Translations under genes and position numbers: made by a program
Shown here: positions 1,364-13,825 of the stretch, piece after piece
Layout of the letters: each line of letters starts with the position of its first letter
Numbering within the stretch: the stretch's first letter is position 1
From: Nitrosomonas sp.
Lineage (GTDB): Bacteria; Pseudomonadota; Gammaproteobacteria; Burkholderiales; Nitrosomonadaceae
Direction: 5' to 3'
Assembly (NCBI GenBank): GCA_028577615.1
Contig: JAJSDU010000009.1
Location: 1 to 64,000, forward strand
DNA: 64,000 bases
The notes under the pieces: generated by a model
What the model saw: only the letters and a program-made list of their open reading frames with translations
The model's database searches: none
What the model was told of the DNA's origin: nothing

Positions 1364-2053
1364 TTATTGTTTTGCAGGAAAATTGATTTGTGTTGAAAGC
1401 ACTTCAATCATCTGTTTTAGTGTGGCCAATTCTGTTTCAAGTTGCATGACGTGTGATTTCAGTTCGGCAAAGTCACTTTCTGCTACAGTATTCATAATTG
1501 GGTGGTGCATTTCTCTCCGCTCTGCCGGGAGATCATCATGTATTTCAGGCATGCCTGACAGCAGATGCATCCAGCGGTTTTCCCGTGAACCCGATTGACG
1601 TGGCAATTTCACGACCAAGCTGCCTTCGTGGCGTTCAGCCAGTTCTTCCAGAAAACTTTCCACTGAAGAGATGTCAGCGAATTTATGCAGCCGCTCGCTA
1701 TTAATGCGCAATTCTCCGGCTGTTTGCGGTCCGCGCAGCATTAATGTGGCGATCAACGCAACGGATTGAGATGGAATTTTCAGGATACGTTCCATATTAT
1801 GCGAAAATCTGTCCGCGCGTCCACCGCTGATCTCGGTGACAAATGCTTTACGTTTCAAATTGTCAATGGCTGACCGTACTTCCGCCAGCGATGCATTCAT
1901 TATCGGGTCGCGGCTGGATTTCTGATTACAGCCGGAAACCAGCGCATTGAGCGTTAGCGGATAAATATCAGGTACTGTGCGTTGTTTTTCAACCAATACA
2001 CCAAGCACGCGTGTTTCAATCAACGAGAATACAGAAAGAGGAATGTCATTCAT
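1364..2053 (-). CDS. yceH: YceH family protein (DUF480/UPF0502)
   Basis: 229 residues from the ATG at 2053; an upstream in-frame extension to 2089 is rejected because family members begin with the segment LSVFSLIETRVLGVLVEKQ. The family consists of two tandem winged-helix domains, with conserved stretches YPLTLNALVSGCNQKSSRDP and VALIATLMLRGPQTAGELR visible here. A C-terminal heptad segment (SDFAELKSHVMQLETELATLKQ) should form a coiled coil. Molecular role is not established; winged-helix folds suggest DNA or protein binding. It follows the carboxylase gene on the same strand after about 95 bp, but the conserved gene is probably independent of the guanidine operon. Confidence 0.9.
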   Translation of the reverse strand: MNDIPLSVFSLIETRVLGVLVEKQRTVPDIYPLTLNALVSGCNQKSSRDPIMNASLAEVRSAIDNLKRKAFVTEISGGRADRFSHNMERILKIPSQSVALIATLMLRGPQTAGELRINSERLHKFADISSVESFLEELAERHEGSLVVKLPRQSGSRENRWMHLLSGMPEIHDDLPAERREMHHPIMNTVAESDFAELKSHVMQLETELATLKQMIEVLSTQINFPAKQ

Positions 2054-2147
2054 AATTAAAATCTTGTCTAAAAAACTCAAGTGTAGCATTTGCAGTCTGT
2101 CGTCATGGAATTAGCTGCCTGTGCATGACTAGTCAAGATTGTTCCAT

Positions 2148-5100
2148 TTATTCTTCGTGAATCATCATCAACATTTGTCCGGCGGCCACATATCCGCCTT
2201 CCTGACAGAAAATCTGACGTATGACGCCACTGACGGGCGCTTCGACCATGAATTCCATTTTCATCGATTCGACAACGACCAGTGGTGTGCCCTGTGTAAC
2301 ACGCTCTCCTTCGGTAACCAGTATTTTCCAGACTGTACCGGTAACATGCGCACCGATGACATGCATTCCTTCAGGTAAATCCAGTTCGCTTTGTACAGAG
2401 GCATCATCGAGGCTGTCTTCATTCAATTCACTTAAATACTCCAGCTGGCCATCTTTCCGCCAACGCTCGCGCTCCGCATCAAAAGCGGTCTGCTGAGTCA
2501 GCTTGAATGTCTGAATAGATGCGCTGTTCTGATGTAGAAATTGATTGTATTCCCGCAGACTGAAAATTGTTTCCTCAACACGCAGTTTGAATTTTCCGGT
2601 GATAAAATCTTTGCGCAGCTTGAGCAGCTCGCTCTCGCTGACCAGGTAAAAGCGGATCTGATCAAAAAAGCGCAACAGCCAGGGCTTGCCATCCTTGAAG
2701 TCACTGGTTTGACGAAAGCGGTTCCACATCTGCACGGTGCGGCCGACAAACTGATAGCCCCCCGGCCCCTCCATGCCATAGATGCATAAATAGGCGCCGC
2801 CAATACCGACAGCATTTTCCGGAGTCCATGTTCTTGCCGGGTTGTATTTTGTGGTAACCAGGCGGTGGCGCGGATCGATGGGGGTTGCAACCGGTGCGCC
2901 GAGATACACATCGCCGAGTCCCAGTACCAGATAGGACGCATCAAAAACAATATGCTGCACGGCTTCGATGCTGTCCAGACCGTTAATGCGGCGGATGAAT
3001 TCGATATTGCTCGGGCACCATGGTGCGTCGCTGCGTACGGATTGCGTATATTTTTCAATGGCCAGCTTTGTCGCTGCGTCATCCCAGGATAATGGCAGAT
3101 GTACAATACGTGAGGGAATTTTGAGATCATCAATTTCAGGCAGTTGTGCTTCAGTATCGATCAGAAATCGCAGCAACTGGTCACGCGGCAGGCATTGAGA
3201 GTCATAGTGTATCTGCAGCGACCGGATACCCGGTGTCAGGTCGATGATTCCTGGAAGAAGCCCGGTATCCTGTGCGTTCTGAATACTGTTCATCAAAGCG
3301 TGTGCGCGCAGCCTGAGATTGAAATCAAGTACTATCGGGCCATACTCGATTAACAGATACTTATCACCAGCTTGACGATAAATAACCGCGGGCGCGTGCG
3401 TACTTTCAGGGGTAGTGTGTAAAACGGGATTTCCCGGATCAGAAAGTACTGACGACAAGTCTTCCTGCTCCGGGAAACTGATCTGCGCAATGGATGTATT
3501 GACATGATGTTCGATTGCTGCCGCCTGCTCCATTGACAGTGGATAAAAACGTACTGTATCGCCGGGCTTTAATTGTCCAAGTTTCCATAATTCAGCGTGG
3601 ACAACAGTTGCCGGACAGACAAAACCGCCAAGACTCGGTCCGTCGGGACCGAGAATGACAGGCATGTCTCCGGTGAAGTCGATGGTGCCTATCGCATACG
3701 CATTATCATGAATGTTGGATGGATGCAGGCCTGCTTCACCGCCATCGCTGCGCGCCCATTCCGGTTTGGGGCCAAGCAGTCGGATGCCGGTGCGGTCGGA
3801 GTTGTGATGTACAGTCCATGATGTACTGAAAAACATCCGGATATCGGCTTCGGTAAAGTAATCGGGTGCGCCATGCGGTCCATACATAACGCCGATTTTC
3901 CAATCGTTGCTATAACGCGGCGCAGAATCCTGCGTTAAAAAACGCTGCTGGTGGTAGCCGGTCTCCTGAATATGCAATACATCGCTGCTGCGTAGCGGGC
4001 GTCCTGTGTGTCCGCCAAACTGGCCCTGAATGAATGTCGATTTACTGCCAAGGTATTCGGTTACCCGGATTCCATCCTGTATGGCCAGGTAAGCACGGCA
4101 ACCGTGTCCAGTAGTTTTGCCGAACTTGAGTATGGCGCCGGTTTTTACTGCATGCGACTGCCATGGCGGCAGTGCTTTGCCGTCGAGATGCGCTTCAATC
4201 GCTGCGCCTGTGATCGCAATGACACTGTCACAGTTGAATCGCAGCGTTGGACCGGAAAAAGTGATTTCCAGCGCGGCCTTATCCGGAGAATTACCGACAA
4301 GCTGGTTTGCCAGACGGAAAGCGAGGGCGTCCATTGGACCGGAGGGGGGGACGCCAATTTGCCAGTATCCGAGCCGCCCGGGATAGTCCTGTATCGTGGT
4401 TTGCACACCGGGACTTAACACATCGATGGTGTGCGGGTAATAGCGGAAGCTGTCCAGGAACCTTGTGTTGTGCAGCCCTTCATCAAATGCCGCGCTGTTC
4501 AGTATCTGGGCGAGATATTCCCGGTTAGTTTCGATACCCTGTATGATGGTTTGATCCAGTGCATGCTGCATGGCGGAAATTGCTTGTTCCCGCGTGGATT
4601 CATGCACAATGACTTTCGCCAGCATGGGATCGTAAAATGGCGATATATCGATGCCACGCTCAATCCAGGTCTCAATTCGTGCAGTGGAAGGGAACCGGAC
4701 ATCGGTCAGTAATCCGCTGGATGGCTGAAAATTGATGGCGGGATTTTCGGCATAAAGACGGACCTGAATTGCGCTGCCTTTGACGTTTATTTTGCAGGTT
4801 TCAAGGGATGGTAAATCACCGGATGCCTGACGCACCATCCATTCCACCAGATCAACGCCGGTCACCATCTCGGTGACACCATGTTCGACCTGAAGCCGCG
4901 TATTCACTTCAAGAAAATAAAATGTGTTGCTGACAGCATCAACCAGAAATTCCACGGTGCCTGCTGACTGATAATTGACCGATTTGCCGAGCCGGATTGC
5001 TGCGTCAATGAGCGCTTGTCGCAGATCGGCCGAAAGATTTGGCGCAGGCGTTTCTTCGACAACTTTCTGATTACGGCGTTGCATTGAGCAGTCGCGTTCA

Positions 5101-5771
5101 CCTAGTGCGATAACGCTGCCTTCGCCGTCACCGAAAATCTGTACTTCAATATGCCGCGCTTGCTCGATATATTTCTCAAGAAAAATGCCGGCATCCTTGA
5201 AATGGTTCTGCGCGAGAAATTTTACGGCATCGTAGGCTTCGCTTAATTCTGTCTTATTCCAGCACAGACGCATACCAATACCGCCGCCACCCGCAGTGCT
5301 TTTCAACATGACCGGATAACCGATATGCCCGGCGGCATGCAAGGCTTCGTCGAGGTTGTCCAGCAGACCGGTTCCCGGCAGCAAGGGAACCTGGTTTTTT
5401 GTGGCAAGTTCGCGTGCGGTATGCTTCAGCCCAAAAATACGAATCTGTTCGGCGCTCGGCCCGATGAAGCGGATCTGATGCGTTGCGCATTGTTCCGCAA
5501 AATCGGCATTCTCGCTCAAAAAACCATATCCGGGATGGATGGCTTGTGAGTCGGTTTGTCGCGCAACAGCGAGTATTTTATCGGTACGCAGATAGCTGTC
5601 CGATACTGCGCCGGCACCAATGCAAAAGGCTTCATCGGCTTCGGTGACATGGCGCGACAAGGCATCTGCATCGGTATAAACCGCCACACTTTTAACACCG
5701 ATACGGCGCAACGTGCGTATGATGCGGCAGGCAATCGCGCCGCGATTGGCAATCAGTACTTTATTGAACAT
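2148..5771 (-). CDS. Biotin-dependent guanidine (formerly 'urea') carboxylase
   Basis: 1207-residue ATP- and bicarbonate-dependent carboxylase. Order of domains: biotin carboxylase with ATP-grasp (about 1-450, starting MFNKVLIANRGAIACR), the KipA/AHS2 half (about 470-780) and KipI/AHS1 half (about 830-1050) of the carboxyltransferase, then a C-terminal biotinyl domain whose acceptor Lys1171 lies in ESMKMEF. The start at 5771 is chosen because the carboxylase fold begins there; in-frame codons upstream to 5837 run into the preceding gene. It is the last gene of a riboswitch-controlled operon, 22 bp behind the DUF1989 gene. Enzymes in this context carboxylate guanidine to carboxyguanidine (established for the family); true urea carboxylases are close homologues. 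No allophanate hydrolase gene follows. Substrate choice here rests on the riboswitch and the partner proteins. Confidence 0.9.
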   Translation of the reverse strand: MFNKVLIANRGAIACRIIRTLRRIGVKSVAVYTDADALSRHVTEADEAFCIGAGAVSDSYLRTDKILAVARQTDSQAIHPGYGFLSENADFAEQCATHQIRFIGPSAEQIRIFGLKHTARELATKNQVPLLPGTGLLDNLDEALHAAGHIGYPVMLKSTAGGGGIGMRLCWNKTELSEAYDAVKFLAQNHFKDAGIFLEKYIEQARHIEVQIFGDGEGSVIALGERDCSMQRRNQKVVEETPAPNLSADLRQALIDAAIRLGKSVNYQSAGTVEFLVDAVSNTFYFLEVNTRLQVEHGVTEMVTGVDLVEWMVRQASGDLPSLETCKINVKGSAIQVRLYAENPAINFQPSSGLLTDVRFPSTARIETWIERGIDISPFYDPMLAKVIVHESTREQAISAMQHALDQTIIQGIETNREYLAQILNSAAFDEGLHNTRFLDSFRYYPHTIDVLSPGVQTTIQDYPGRLGYWQIGVPPSGPMDALAFRLANQLVGNSPDKAALEITFSGPTLRFNCDSVIAITGAAIEAHLDGKALPPWQSHAVKTGAILKFGKTTGHGCRAYLAIQDGIRVTEYLGSKSTFIQGQFGGHTGRPLRSSDVLHIQETGYHQQRFLTQDSAPRYSNDWKIGVMYGPHGAPDYFTEADIRMFFSTSWTVHHNSDRTGIRLLGPKPEWARSDGGEAGLHPSNIHDNAYAIGTIDFTGDMPVILGPDGPSLGGFVCPATVVHAELWKLGQLKPGDTVRFYPLSMEQAAAIEHHVNTSIAQISFPEQEDLSSVLSDPGNPVLHTTPESTHAPAVIYRQAGDKYLLIEYGPIVLDFNLRLRAHALMNSIQNAQDTGLLPGIIDLTPGIRSLQIHYDSQCLPRDQLLRFLIDTEAQLPEIDDLKIPSRIVHLPLSWDDAATKLAIEKYTQSVRSDAPWCPSNIEFIRRINGLDSIEAVQHIVFDASYLVLGLGDVYLGAPVATPIDPRHRLVTTKYNPARTWTPENAVGIGGAYLCIYGMEGPGGYQFVGRTVQMWNRFRQTSDFKDGKPWLLRFFDQIRFYLVSESELLKLRKDFITGKFKLRVEETIFSLREYNQFLHQNSASIQTFKLTQQTAFDAERERWRKDGQLEYLSELNEDSLDDASVQSELDLPEGMHVIGAHVTGTVWKILVTEGERVTQGTPLVVVESMKMEFMVEAPVSGVIRQIFCQEGGYVAAGQMLMMIHEE

Positions 5772-5793
5772 AGCTCTGGTACCCTCTGCAATA

Positions 5794-6453
5794 TCAGTCC
5801 CAAACCAGCAAGCGGATCGGTGTCGGATTATAAGCATTACACGGATTGTTCAATTGCGGACAATTGGAAATCAGTATGATGACATCCATTTCAGCGCGCA
5901 TTTCAACGTACTTGTCAGGCGCCGAGATACCATCGTCGAATTCAAGCCTGCCGTCTTCGGTAACCGGTACATTCATGAAAAAATTAATGTTGCTTGGCAA
6001 ATCCCGTTTGCTCATGCTGCGTTGTTCGCAAAGCGGGTCGTGTGCCAGCGCATGCAGAAAATTGTCCCGGCAACTGTGCATCGGATATTTGTCCAGCGCA
6101 TAGCGGACAGTGTTGCTCTCCGCCGAACAGGCGCCACCCAGCGTATCATGCCGTCCACAGGTATCCGCGACAATGGTTAACATGACATTGCCGCAATTGG
6201 AATAAAGCCTGCTGCCCGTAGTCAGATAAAGCTGATTCTGCCGGCGTATGGTGTCGGTGGCGCTGTAACGTTCCAGTGCCTGGCGCGCATTAAAAAACAG
6301 CGTATCAACCGCCTGGTTGCCTTCCAGATCCACGATACGAAATGTTTGTCCGGTATTGACTTGTTTAACCCATGGTTCCCCAGCCGCGCAGATTTCATCC
6401 ACCACCGCAGTAGCAGGATCAAGGCGGCTTTCTGTCAATTGTTGCGTATTCAT
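5794..6453 (-). CDS. DUF1989 protein, probable carboxyguanidine deiminase subunit (UAAP2 type)
   Basis: 219 residues. The body carries the conserved DUF1989 features [38 protein letters not shown], a cysteine-containing [19 protein letters not shown] and a C-terminal CPQLNNPCN segment. Formerly called a urea carboxylase-associated protein. Related pairs (CgdA/CgdB) have been described as a two-subunit carboxyguanidine deiminase that yields allophanate and ammonia. The start overlaps the stop of the preceding subunit by 4 bp (ATGA), implying translational coupling and a fixed subunit ratio. Which of the two names, cgdA or cgdB, applies cannot be decided from the sequence alone. Confidence 0.88.
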
Positions 6454-7190
6454 AATTCACCTCCATGATCTTTTACACTGTGCAGGCAGTAGCGATGCGT
6501 ATTATGCCGCGCCCGTACGTTTTCGGCGATGCTTGCGCATTCAGTGACAATTTCAGGCGGCGTGCTGAACAATGCCAAATTAACCGGACCCGGATGATAA
6601 TGATCCGCCGGGTCGAGTGGATGCGGCGCTGCGGAGAGTGCTATCAACGTATTCATTTCGAAACTTAGATCAATATAATCCCCGGCCTTGCTGTTATCTA
6701 AATGGAAGTGCAGCTCACCGTTTTTATCGGCGGTTACTTTACTGAAAAAATTGATATTGGCTACGATGTCACGCTTATTCAAGTTCCATTTTCCCAATTC
6801 AATCAACATGCCATCCAATCCATTGCGATGCATGTTGTTGCGATGCTCCTGATAGCGTGAAACACCATATTTTTGCCGGATCAGTTCGGCGTCGCTCAGT
6901 CCGCAGACAGTATCGTGCCAGCCCACCGTATCCGCGGTAATGCAGCAGAATATCCGTCCCATATCGGAATGGCAGGCATGGCCTTTGGTCAAATAAAATG
7001 TATGCTGCGATTTGAGCGTGTCAGCCATGTTGTAGCGTTCCAGTTTCTCCTCCTGGTTGTAAAACAATACGGATACATTGGCGCCACCATCGATGTCCGT
7101 CAGCCGCAGCGTCATTCCGCGCCGGATTATGCCGGACCAGTGACCGCCTCCCGGGATAAATTCCTGCCAGAGAAAATGTTGTTCGTTCAT
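6450..7190 (-). CDS. DUF1989 protein, probable carboxyguanidine deiminase subunit (UAAP1 type)
   Basis: 246 residues from the ATG at 7190, preceded by AAAGGAGTCCAAA, a strong ribosome binding site; the open frame upstream to 7316 lies inside the permease gene. It is a paralogue of the next gene: [56 protein letters not shown] and [14 protein letters not shown] correspond to the matching blocks there. As the partner subunit it is expected to deiminate carboxyguanidine to allophanate. It follows the permease stop by 20 bp, so permease, both subunits and carboxylase form one operon. Confidence 0.88.
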
Positions 7191-7210
7191 TTTGGACTCC
7201 TTTTTTAGTG

Positions 7211-8665
7211 TCAGTCTTTTTTGCTGGCTGACATACGGATTTTGTTTATGATGATAGATAACGTAGTTATGCTCAGGATGCTGCCAAGCACCAGCGGTAT
7301 TGCCCATAACTGCCACCAGGGCGCATCAGGTGAAACTGCATAGGTGCGCGGCCAGGCAATATTGATAAATTCAAAAACCGACCAGATAAACGCCACTGTA
7401 TTGATTACCAATCCCCATACGCCGAGTTTAAGTTCACCGAGCGCCGGATTCCAGCGTCCGGTCAACCGGGTAAACAGACCGACGCCGGTGGTCATGGCGA
7501 ACATGGCATACAATCCGCCGGTACCGAAGGCAATCACTGTTGCGACAGCGCCGTCATTCAGCCCGAGCAACAAACCCAGGCCTGACAGGGTAACAGTGCA
7601 TAGGATGGCATTGCGTGGTGTCCTGTCTGCCGTGACATGGCTTAGCATCTCAGGCATATTCCCTTCGCGCGCCATTGAAAAAACGATACGTGAGGTATAT
7701 TTGACGACGGATGCACCGCAGGCCAAAAAGGCGATCATGACAATGCCGGAAAATGGTTTTTCTATCCATTGACCAAATCGGTCTGCAATCAATGGTGTTA
7801 CCGGATCTGCCGTTTTGCTGGCGTTTGTCAGTGCTTCATGATCAAAGGCCAGAATCAGTGAGGCTGAGTTAAACAATACGACGGCGCCGACGGCGCTTAA
7901 TGCCAGAAAAATGGCGCGTGGCACCATACGCTTGGGTTGATGCGTTTCTTCGGCGGTTGTGGAACAGGAATCAAAGCCGATAAAAGCCCAGCCTGCTATC
8001 GCGAGTGCGGCCAGAAATGCAGCCGTTTCAGTGGGTGCGGTGCCTGATCCCATGTGCTGAAATAATTCGGAAAATCCATGCTGGCGGAAAAAAAAGAATA
8101 ACAGCAGGGCGATGCCGAATGACCCTATGATTTCCGCGTACACACCTAATGCGATTAGTATCTTGAAGATGTTGACATGCGCCAGATTGAGCAAGGCGCA
8201 TAGCAGCAGAAAAGCAGCACCCCATAACACCATCGATATTCCACTGCTATCAAGCGCACCTGAGAAGGTTGCCAGCCAGATACCGCCGGTATACGCCGTC
8301 GTGGTCAGCATGGCGATTGCGGAGCAGACATATATGACGCCAGCGTATTGACCAGTTATCGTACCGCCCAGCTGCCGTGCCCACTTATAAGCACCGCCGG
8401 CAATCGGAAACTGCGAAGCGAGTTCGGCATAAACAGTGGCTACCATTAATTGCATAATCAGGCAGATTGCCAGCGCGGCAAACCAGCCGCCGCCAGTAAC
8501 GGTAGTCTGAACGCCGATAATGGCATAGAGACCAACCACGGGTGAAACAACAGCAAAGCCCATAGTGAAACTGTGCCATACGGTCATGCTGCGATTAAGT
8601 GTATCCGCTGCAGATGAATTACTGTCGGCGGGCGCGCATGAATTCTGTTTTAATAGTATTGTCAT
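7211..8665 (-). CDS. APC-superfamily amino-acid-permease-like transporter, candidate guanidine importer
   Basis: 484 residues from the ATG at 8665, which follows AAAGGAG with 9-nt spacing; the upstream in-frame stretch to 8776 belongs to the leader. About 12 hydrophobic segments, beginning TVWHSFTMGFAVVSPVVGLYAI, with the typical APC consensus SQFPIAGGAYKWAR (about 100) and GFDSCSTTAEETHQPKRMVPRAI (about 260). It resembles GABA/choline-type permeases. First gene of the operon and directly under the guanidine-I riboswitch, so import of guanidine (or an amino-acid-like guanidino compound) is the natural inference; guanidine export is usually done by SMR or MATE proteins, not this family. Confidence 0.88.
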   Translation of the reverse strand: MTILLKQNSCAPADSNSSAADTLNRSMTVWHSFTMGFAVVSPVVGLYAIIGVQTTVTGGGWFAALAICLIMQLMVATVYAELASQFPIAGGAYKWARQLGGTITGQYAGVIYVCSAIAMLTTTAYTGGIWLATFSGALDSSGISMVLWGAAFLLLCALLNLAHVNIFKILIALGVYAEIIGSFGIALLLFFFFRQHGFSELFQHMGSGTAPTETAAFLAALAIAGWAFIGFDSCSTTAEETHQPKRMVPRAIFLALSAVGAVVLFNSASLILAFDHEALTNASKTADPVTPLIADRFGQWIEKPFSGIVMIAFLACGASVVKYTSRIVFSMAREGNMPEMLSHVTADRTPRNAILCTVTLSGLGLLLGLNDGAVATVIAFGTGGLYAMFAMTTGVGLFTRLTGRWNPALGELKLGVWGLVINTVAFIWSVFEFINIAWPRTYAVSPDAPWWQLWAIPLVLGSILSITTLSIIINKIRMSASKKD

Positions 8666-8800
8666 GATCGAAGACTCCTTTCGCACAAATTTACGTGTAC
8701 GATTGTTGTGTACAACGCCAATTGTGCGGTTAGTGCGGAATAAATTCCCGGAACTCAGAATATATGCAATGATCATCCCAAATGGGCATCGTGCATAAAC

Positions 8801-8964
8801 CTATCTCCCGGGCTTTTATCCCTCCGTGGAGTCTCGCGATCTGAAAGAAGCTTTTATGAAGAAGTGCGAGACCGGAAACTCTCGAACCAGACGCTGATGA
8901 AGACACTGATCTAAAACGCAATGTTCAGAGTCAGTTAACACTCCGCAGCCGGAACCCTAGTTTC
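8801..8964 (-). promoter_or_regulatory. Guanidine-I riboswitch (ykkC subtype 1)
   Basis: Read on the minus strand, the leader begins with CTAGGGTTCCGGC at 8960-8948, continues with CTGGTTCGAGAG (8890-8879), and ends with ACGGAGGGATAAAAGCCCG then GGAGATAG (8827-8801). These three blocks are the hallmark conserved segments of the ykkC / guanidine-I aptamer in the right order and spacing. The middle contains a variable stem (CGCACTT..., GCGAGACT). It lies about 135 nt before the permease start, leaving room for an expression platform. It directly supports guanidine-dependent control of the operon. Confidence 0.93.
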
Positions 8965-9016
8965 CAATTTGTATCAAACTCAAATTCGTTTTCAGGCTAT
9001 CAAAATTTTCAGACAA

Positions 9017-13024: not shown

Positions 13025-13825
13025 GTGGCCTATGTAAAACCTGAAGAGATTGTTGAGAATATGCTGCGGGCGGGCGCCAGCAAAGCAAGTTTGCCGGTTG
13101 GCAGTTTGTTGTTACGCGGCTTTCTGGCCGGCGCGTTTCTAGGGTATGCGACTACGTTGGCTATTACCGCCGCAACGCAAACCGGTCTTGGTATAATCGG
13201 AGCCATTGTTTTTCCGGTTGGCTTTGTCATGATCATCCTGCTCGGCTTGGAGCTGGCAACAGGCAATTTTGCGCTTATTCCTATCGCCGTATACGATGGA
13301 CGCACCCGTTTTGTGCGATTACTCAATAACTGGACGTGGGTTTTACTTGGCAATTTGATCGGCAGCGTCGGTTATGCGTTTTTATATTACATCGTTATGA
13401 CCAAAATGGGATACATTGATCCTGGGACGCTTCCCGTGGCGCAACGTATTGCCGAAATCGGCGAGGTTAAAACACTGGGATACGCGCAATATGGTTTTGC
13501 CGGAACCGTCTCGGCTTTCAGCAGCGCGTTGCTGTGCAACTGGATGGTTACGCTGGGCGCAGTAATGGCATTAGCGTCCACTACGACAGGTGGCAAGATT
13601 ACCGCCATGTGGTTACCGATTATGACCTTCTTTGCTTTGGGCTATGAACACGCTATCGTAAATATGTTCGTTATTCCCGCTGCCATGTTGTTTAGTGACA
13701 ATATCACCTTTGCGGACTGGTGGTTATGGAACGGTTTGCCGGTTTTAGCCGGAAATATTGCCGGTGGCATGTTTTTTACCGGTTTTTTGTTGTACTGGAC
13801 GTTCGGTTCTGCACATAAAAGATAA
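13025..13825 (+). CDS. Formate/nitrite transporter (FNT) family channel
   Basis: 266 residues with the six membrane segments of FNT channels. Conserved features: the re-entrant-loop region LELATGNFALIP, the cytoplasmic start YVKPEEIVENML, and ALGYEHAIVNMFVIPAAM near 210-230, in which the histidine is the central pore residue. GTG start with AAGGGA upstream. FNT proteins form pentamers passing small monovalent anions (formate, nitrite, hydrosulfide). In an ammonia oxidiser nitrite movement would be the plausible role, but selectivity cannot be read from sequence. Confidence 0.9.
   Translation: MAYVKPEEIVENMLRAGASKASLPVGSLLLRGFLAGAFLGYATTLAITAATQTGLGIIGAIVFPVGFVMIILLGLELATGNFALIPIAVYDGRTRFVRLLNNWTWVLLGNLIGSVGYAFLYYIVMTKMGYIDPGTLPVAQRIAEIGEVKTLGYAQYGFAGTVSAFSSALLCNWMVTLGAVMALASTTTGGKITAMWLPIMTFFALGYEHAIVNMFVIPAAMLFSDNITFADWWLWNGLPVLAGNIAGGMFFTGFLLYWTFGSAHKR

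Follow-up and report, generated by a model that had tools for sequence, protein, structure and literature searches.

A 64,000-nucleotide stretch of Nitrosomonas sp. DNA (contig JAJSDU010000009.1, positions 1 to 64,000, here called the window) carries a Guanidine-I riboswitch aptamer on its reverse strand, followed downstream on the same strand by genes for an APC permease, two DUF1989 proteins and a biotin carboxylase of ~1200 residues. A first-pass annotation, made from the sequence alone, had read this arrangement as a guanidine catabolism operon of a presumptive ammonia oxidizer, with a carboxylase that would otherwise be named urea carboxylase. Family searches returned each of these elements, and the features are listed below.

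8803..8971, (-): Guanidine-I riboswitch aptamer (RF00442), two peripheral loops of which exceed the family consensus in length
8738..8812, (-): putative expression platform, a 66-nt hairpin (8747-8812) followed by AAUUUAUUC
7211..8665, (-): 484-aa permease of the APC superfamily, predicted to import guanidine (PF13520, 131.3 bits; predicted start, mechanical open reading frame 7211-8776)
6450..7190, (-): CgdA-type carboxyguanidine deiminase subunit (DUF1989, UAAP1; TIGR03425, 332.9 bits, cut-off 205.95; PF09347; predicted start, mechanical open reading frame to 7316)
5794..6453, (-): CgdB-type carboxyguanidine deiminase subunit (DUF1989, UAAP2; TIGR03424, 342.0 bits, cut-off 284.7; PF09347)
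2148..5771, (-): guanidine carboxylase, as assigned from family and pocket residues, with biotin carboxylase, carboxyltransferase and BCCP domains fused in a single chain (TIGR02712, 1919.7 bits, cut-off 1303.85; Pfam domains; mechanical open reading frame 2148-5837, 1229 aa)
1364..2089, (-): DUF480 protein directly downstream of the carboxylase (PF04337; same neighbor in the sister genome G002), probably not part of the pathway

The RF00442 covariance model was matched by cmscan over its full length (model positions 1-107) at 8971-8803 on the reverse strand, with a score of 78.3 bits against a gathering threshold of 63 (E 3e-12). The first-pass annotation had placed the aptamer at 8801-8964, right to within a few bases, and the covariance-model search that it had proposed as a check returned a match and not the absence of a hit. 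This was the sole Rfam match at gathering scores within the window, and RF00442 matched nowhere else in the genome. The 3' strand of the aptamer (CCCGGGA) is able to pair alternatively with UUCCGGG located 52 nt downstream, giving the 66-nt hairpin of the putative expression platform. This competing hairpin was computed at -24.6 kcal/mol (z -3.0), and 1 of 200 shuffled sequences was equally good. Shortly downstream of the aptamer, a 7-nt complement to its 3' strand (G-U pairs allowed) is present in 41 of 73 leaders of the genus, compared to a mean of 10.1 and a maximum of 16 for single-base (not dinucleotide) shuffles, the 73 leaders being related to one another. The computed hairpin and the recurring complement suit control via transcription termination, in which the switching itself would be a prediction from the fold. 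Measured from core to core, the aptamer spans 161 nt, against a median of 97 among 68 genus leaders outside its clade, only one of which (G041) exceeds 120 nt. The aptamers of its clade mates (G006, G090b, G050 and G049) span 123-140 nt, and enlarged peripheral loops are common to all five aptamers measured in the clade (123-161 nt).

The mechanical reading frames appear to start too far upstream. AAGGAG at 8680-8675 precedes an ATG at 8665, and the corresponding frames of G002 measure 484, 245, 219 and 1208 aa for the permease, CgdA, CgdB and the carboxylase, respectively. From this motif and these lengths we infer starts at 8665, 7190, 6453 and 5771, which would separate the aptamer from the start codon of the permease by a leader of ~137 nt. 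The permease matched TIGR03428, the model for the permease of the urea carboxylase system, weakly (162.7 bits, cut-off 740.45). Because this score lies far under the cut-off, the name APC permease appears the better one.

The operon was compared with its counterparts in 85 genomes of the genus. Of these, 84 matched the carboxylase at E <= 1e-30, some only via related biotin carboxylases of ~460 residues; 75 loci were read, the window included, and yielded 72 full-length carboxylases in 71 genomes. The counts for allophanate hydrolase (AtzF) and urease given below refer to these 71 genomes and leave out the 14 of 85 that had no full-length carboxylase in a read locus. The gene order APC-CgdA-CgdB-carboxylase was found at 60 of the 72 loci. 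Among the 12 exceptions, seven carboxylases of one subclade lie apart from the other three genes, two are located at contig ends, and at three the open reading frame picker had not called CgdA.

The substrate of the carboxylase was addressed by alignment to the urea amidolyase of K. lactis (5i8i/3va7, counted along the rows). Asp720 of the query, in the numbering of the 1229-aa frame, faces Asn1330, and the Asp of the GLGD motif (residue 976) faces Asp1584. Both positions served Palatinszky et al. as the criterion for guanidine carboxylases (PMC11410670, available text). As the first position holds Asp where the urea enzyme has Asn and the equivalent of Asp1584 is kept, the pocket is, judged from its sequence, of the guanidine type; the urea-type pocket named by the first-pass annotation as the contrary outcome was not seen. 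Asp occupies both positions in 72 of 72 full-length carboxylases of the genus.

As assembled (90.5% complete), the genome of the window lacks AtzF and with it the complete guanidine carboxylase pathway. Neither the operon nor the rest of the genome gave AtzF: searches with TIGR02713 at E <= 0.001 returned only GatA, which matches TIGR00132 above cut-off and lies in gatCAB, and an orphan C-terminal domain. The latter is encoded by a separate AH_C gene (PF21986, 144 aa, C55:14168-14602, (+)) with no amidase found nearby. A split allophanate hydrolase composed of this domain and an amidase was rejected, as the sole amidase is the GatA in gatCAB and AH_C is located on another contig. The sister genome G002 (99% complete, carboxylase 92% identical) has no full-length AtzF, yielding a GatA-sized match and a similar C-terminal piece, and the closed genome G006 has none either, with one GatA-sized match only.

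Across the genus, TIGR02713 was applied at E <= 0.001 to the genome of the window and 24 genus members and at E <= 1e-100 to all 85 genomes, amidases weaker than the latter value being listed only for the former 25. At E <= 1e-100, an AtzF match was absent in 38 of 71 genomes, and likewise in 35 of the 65 genomes with >=90% completeness and <=5% contamination; the partial or split AtzF of G011 and G081 was scored as present. AtzF lies within the next two open reading frames after the carboxylase at 32 of 72 loci (once split in two and once after a small intervening frame), the place taken by DUF480 in the window, and one further genome (G073) holds it elsewhere. In the carboxylase tree, the window belongs to a clade of seven rows (Shimodaira-Hasegawa-like approximate likelihood ratio test support of 100), and none of the seven loci has an adjacent AtzF. 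Genome G090 holds two full carboxylase operons (L173 and L176), one with AtzF and one without, the latter within the clade of the window. At least nine changes of AtzF state are required on the tree (with G090b labeled by locus and not by genome), which is a quick LG+G4 tree in which long outgroup branches meet and whose counts cannot tell gain from loss. G016 and G020 show the order carboxylase-AtzF-TPMT and their near relatives G008 and G022 carboxylase-TPMT, which looks like a clean loss of atzF, the direction not being given by the tree alone.

Because AtzF was found neither in the operon nor in the assembled genome, the operon alone would give one ammonia plus allophanate. The first-pass expectation that guanidine would yield ammonia would hold for this single ammonia; for the other two of the three, the enzyme AtzF was not found. 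Allophanate is reported to decarboxylate spontaneously to urea unless hydrolyzed (PMC3944691), and with no allophanate hydrolase found, urea is its most likely product here. A single cluster of the genome encodes the gamma, beta and alpha subunits of urease together with UreG and a urea transporter. Via urea and urease, all three nitrogens could still reach ammonia in this particular host.

That the host is an ammonia oxidizer, as presumed in the first-pass annotation, is supported. The amo sequence found in its genome is a C-terminal piece of AmoB that stops 3 bases short of the end of contig C9, a position that would be expected if the assembly broke at a repeated amo cluster. Of 41 genomes searched, 13 matched PF02461 (AmoA) above cut-off, and each of these belongs to the genus (13 of the 24 other members searched). 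The genus member G061 matches record JAAEXZ010000013.1, Nitrosomonas sp. LK110, 61 of 61 tested 200-base blocks agreeing exactly.

Taken together, we consider it likely that the locus serves a Nitrosomonas-type ammonia oxidizer as an operon for the uptake and degradation of guanidine, under the control of a Guanidine-I riboswitch. Binding of guanidine would stabilize the aptamer and keep its 3' strand from the terminator-like hairpin, so that transcription enters the operon. The APC permease would import guanidine, and the carboxylase would convert it with ATP and bicarbonate to carboxyguanidine, as suggested by family and, for the carboxylase, by the pocket residues. CgdA and CgdB, again judged by family, would deiminate carboxyguanidine to allophanate and one ammonia. 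In the weakest step of the scheme, allophanate would decarboxylate to urea, from which the urease of the host may release two more ammonia. Besides removing guanidine, the pathway would supply ammonia for assimilation and for ammonia oxidation.

Several observations weigh against parts of this scheme. Regarding the switch, a consensus terminator scan did not list the hairpin at 8747-8812, the tail of which is AU-rich without a clean U run; a simple scan listed no sigma-70 promoter, and the search for a hairpin plus T-rich tail came out empty in 33 of 73 genus leaders and weak in many others. Regarding the host, AmoA was not found in the 90.5% complete assembly, and PF13447 (Hao) was unmatched in this genome, although a control search with it also matched nowhere. 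Regarding the urea route, UreD, UreE and UreF were not identified among the eight open reading frames scanned in the urease stretch, and G002 has neither an AtzF nor a urease match. Among the 65 good genomes, 21 of those without AtzF have urease and 14 do not, compared to 20 and 10 of those with AtzF (Fisher p 0.62). Urease was rejected as a general stand-in for AtzF on these 65 genomes as well as on all 71 (p 0.46) and on the 59 outside the subclade with separated carboxylases, whose second unit is described below (p 0.78); independent pairs on the carboxylase tree gave a median sign-test p of 0.625. With no association of AtzF and urease across the genus, the urea route is unproven and is proposed for this host only.

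Other explanations differ in which of these elements they question. One of them takes the carboxylase for a genuine urea carboxylase and the operon for one of urea use, in line with the TIGR02712 match far above cut-off and the label given to such genes in older Nitrosomonas genome papers (PMC4714114, PMC4786657, available text). This is highly improbable given the Asp at the position of K. lactis Asn1330, the guanidine riboswitch upstream, the UAAP1/UAAP2-type DUF1989 pair and a host that has a urease. Nitrosomonas sp. Is79, moreover, was reported to hold such genes, no urease and no capacity to form nitrite from urea (PMC3764937, available text), which suits a guanidine enzyme. It is also unlikely, if less so, that AtzF resides in the unassembled part of the genome and the pathway is ordinary and complete. 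The completeness of 90.5% leaves room for it and the orphan AH_C gene is AtzF-like sequence in the genome, but DUF480 stands in the place where AtzF adjoins the carboxylase at many other loci, the 99% complete G002 and the closed G006 likewise gave no full-length match, and the seven clade loci are all without adjacent AtzF although G090 has one in its second operon.

More serious is the possibility, which we rate as real though the less probable one, that the operon mainly detoxifies guanidine, leaving one ammonia and allophanate or urea with little value as an energy substrate. Biotin carboxylases spend ATP on each carboxylation, here one ATP per guanidine, and 15 of the 38 genomes without an AtzF match have no urease match either. 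Guanidine at 1 mM was reported to inhibit N. europaea, and the tested ammonia-oxidizing bacteria (AOB) were unable to use guanidine alone (PMC11410670, available text). The first gene of the operon, however, encodes a permease of the predicted guanidine-import kind and not an exporter; the genome yielded a single SMR gene, which scores under the cut-offs of the Qac/EmrE models and has no RF00442 nearby (for other guanidine riboswitch classes, the search covered the window alone), and the host urease makes a fuller recovery of ammonia possible. A guanidine exporter was rejected as a candidate on account of this single sub-threshold SMR gene. A guanidinase in place of the carboxylase was rejected as well, the sole PF00491 ureohydrolase being of the agmatinase type (TIGR01230 above cut-off).

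The reading as an uptake and degradation operon agrees with published AOB systems. The first-pass annotation is partly supported: its observation is right, and its interpretation is right in kind, already published and qualified by the missing last enzyme. In 2024, Palatinszky et al. reported that 135 of 145 betaproteobacterial ammonia oxidizers carry genes for guanidine degradation and that these belong exclusively to the carboxylase pathway (PMC11410670, available text), so that the core idea of guanidine carboxylase genes in AOB is in print and the present locus extends the gene set to a further AOB lineage. As here, the operons described there hold a carboxylase with the Asp criterion, CgdA/CgdB-type genes and an APC permease; Guanidine-I control, suggested here by the leader, is shown there for Nitrosospira multiformis (Fig. 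1c legend). In contrast to them, no AtzF was found here in the operon or the assembled genome. The absence of AtzF is not discussed at the five places of the main text of PMC11410670 that contain 'allophanate', 'urea carboxylase' or 'carboxyguanidine', the supplementary tables lying outside this scope. The use of ammonia from guanidine as an energy substrate, as proposed in the first-pass annotation, is not established for AOB: five strains with the gene set, one of them without urease, were tested, three turned a fraction of the guanidine into nitrite and only with ammonium, and none was able to use guanidine as sole substrate (PMC11410670, available text).

Vreelandella boliviensis and enterobacteria (PMC12508155, PMC12186494, available text) share with this locus the Guanidine-I riboswitch, the carboxylase and CgdA/B or a carboxyguanidine deaminase; unlike it, they have ABC-type importers, a second riboswitch (Guanidine-II) in front of the carboxylase and a gene for allophanate hydrolase, and V. 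boliviensis additionally has mgdH/mgdL. The guanidinase operon of the comammox organism Nitrospira inopinata also shows a Guanidine-I riboswitch directly before an APC permease, but uses a nickel ureohydrolase without ATP (PMC11410670, available text), whereas the only arginase-family gene here is agmatinase-type and without RF00442. In one study of floodplain nitrifiers, guanidine genes were absent from all metagenome-assembled genomes of these organisms (PMC12625717, available text). The atzF gene was stated to be present in almost all Proteobacteria, including the genomes analyzed there (PMC11135946, available text), which the 38 of 71 genus genomes without a match do not fit. We met no statement of a missing AtzF in Nitrosomonas in the literature covered, outside of which lay supplementary tables and most subscription papers.

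Guanidine is a nitrogenous compound found in urine and in industry. Which nitrifiers use it has been under active discussion since growth on guanidine was demonstrated for a comammox organism (PMC11410670, available text). Should AtzF-less operons indeed stop at urea, the ammonia obtained would be overstated wherever gene lists attribute complete guanidine mineralization to AOB, and guanidine-fed AOB could pass urea to neighbors.

In seven genomes of the genus (G001, G012, G017, G021, G045, G046 and G047), APC-CgdA-CgdB is followed by a carboxyltransferase-BCCP protein of ~780 aa without biotin carboxylase domain (BC-less), in all seven located apart from the full carboxylase.

5164..7518, (-), in L157 (G017:C15:98000-117900): BC-less carboxyltransferase-BCCP protein; also in L158, L160, L162, L168, L226 and L228

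All seven proteins retain the MKM biotin motif and the two pocket Asp residues, and they form one clade (support 100) on a long branch outside all full carboxylases of the tree. RF00442 precedes both units in G001, G012, G017 and G021, the four in the relatives set; a core-pattern search placed the riboswitch upstream of both units in G045 and G046 as well, and upstream of a single unit in G047. Neither AtzF nor urease was matched in the seven genomes, G047 being 80% complete. Among 399 genomes of the order, 54 had matches at E <= 1e-150 with two candidates per genome scored; the one intact match with a frame of ~800 aa came again from this subclade (G046), and partial matches in G442, G233 and G112 also had frames <1000 aa. 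In the available text on phage-infected N. (PMC13356812), where guanidine is also mentioned, a gene count may resemble such twin guanidine units.

For the genus as a whole, we offer a tentative and rather doubtful suggestion: in about half of it, atzF would have been cleanly lost, repeatedly, so that the riboswitch operons end at allophanate and leave one ammonia and allophanate or urea, to be recovered by urease where present and excreted otherwise. The BC-less protein of the subclade without AtzF and urease might then transfer carboxyl groups of allophanate to guanidine without consuming ATP.

A few kb from the operon and on the opposite strand, the window further encodes a formate/nitrite transporter (PF01226) at 13025-13825 (+).

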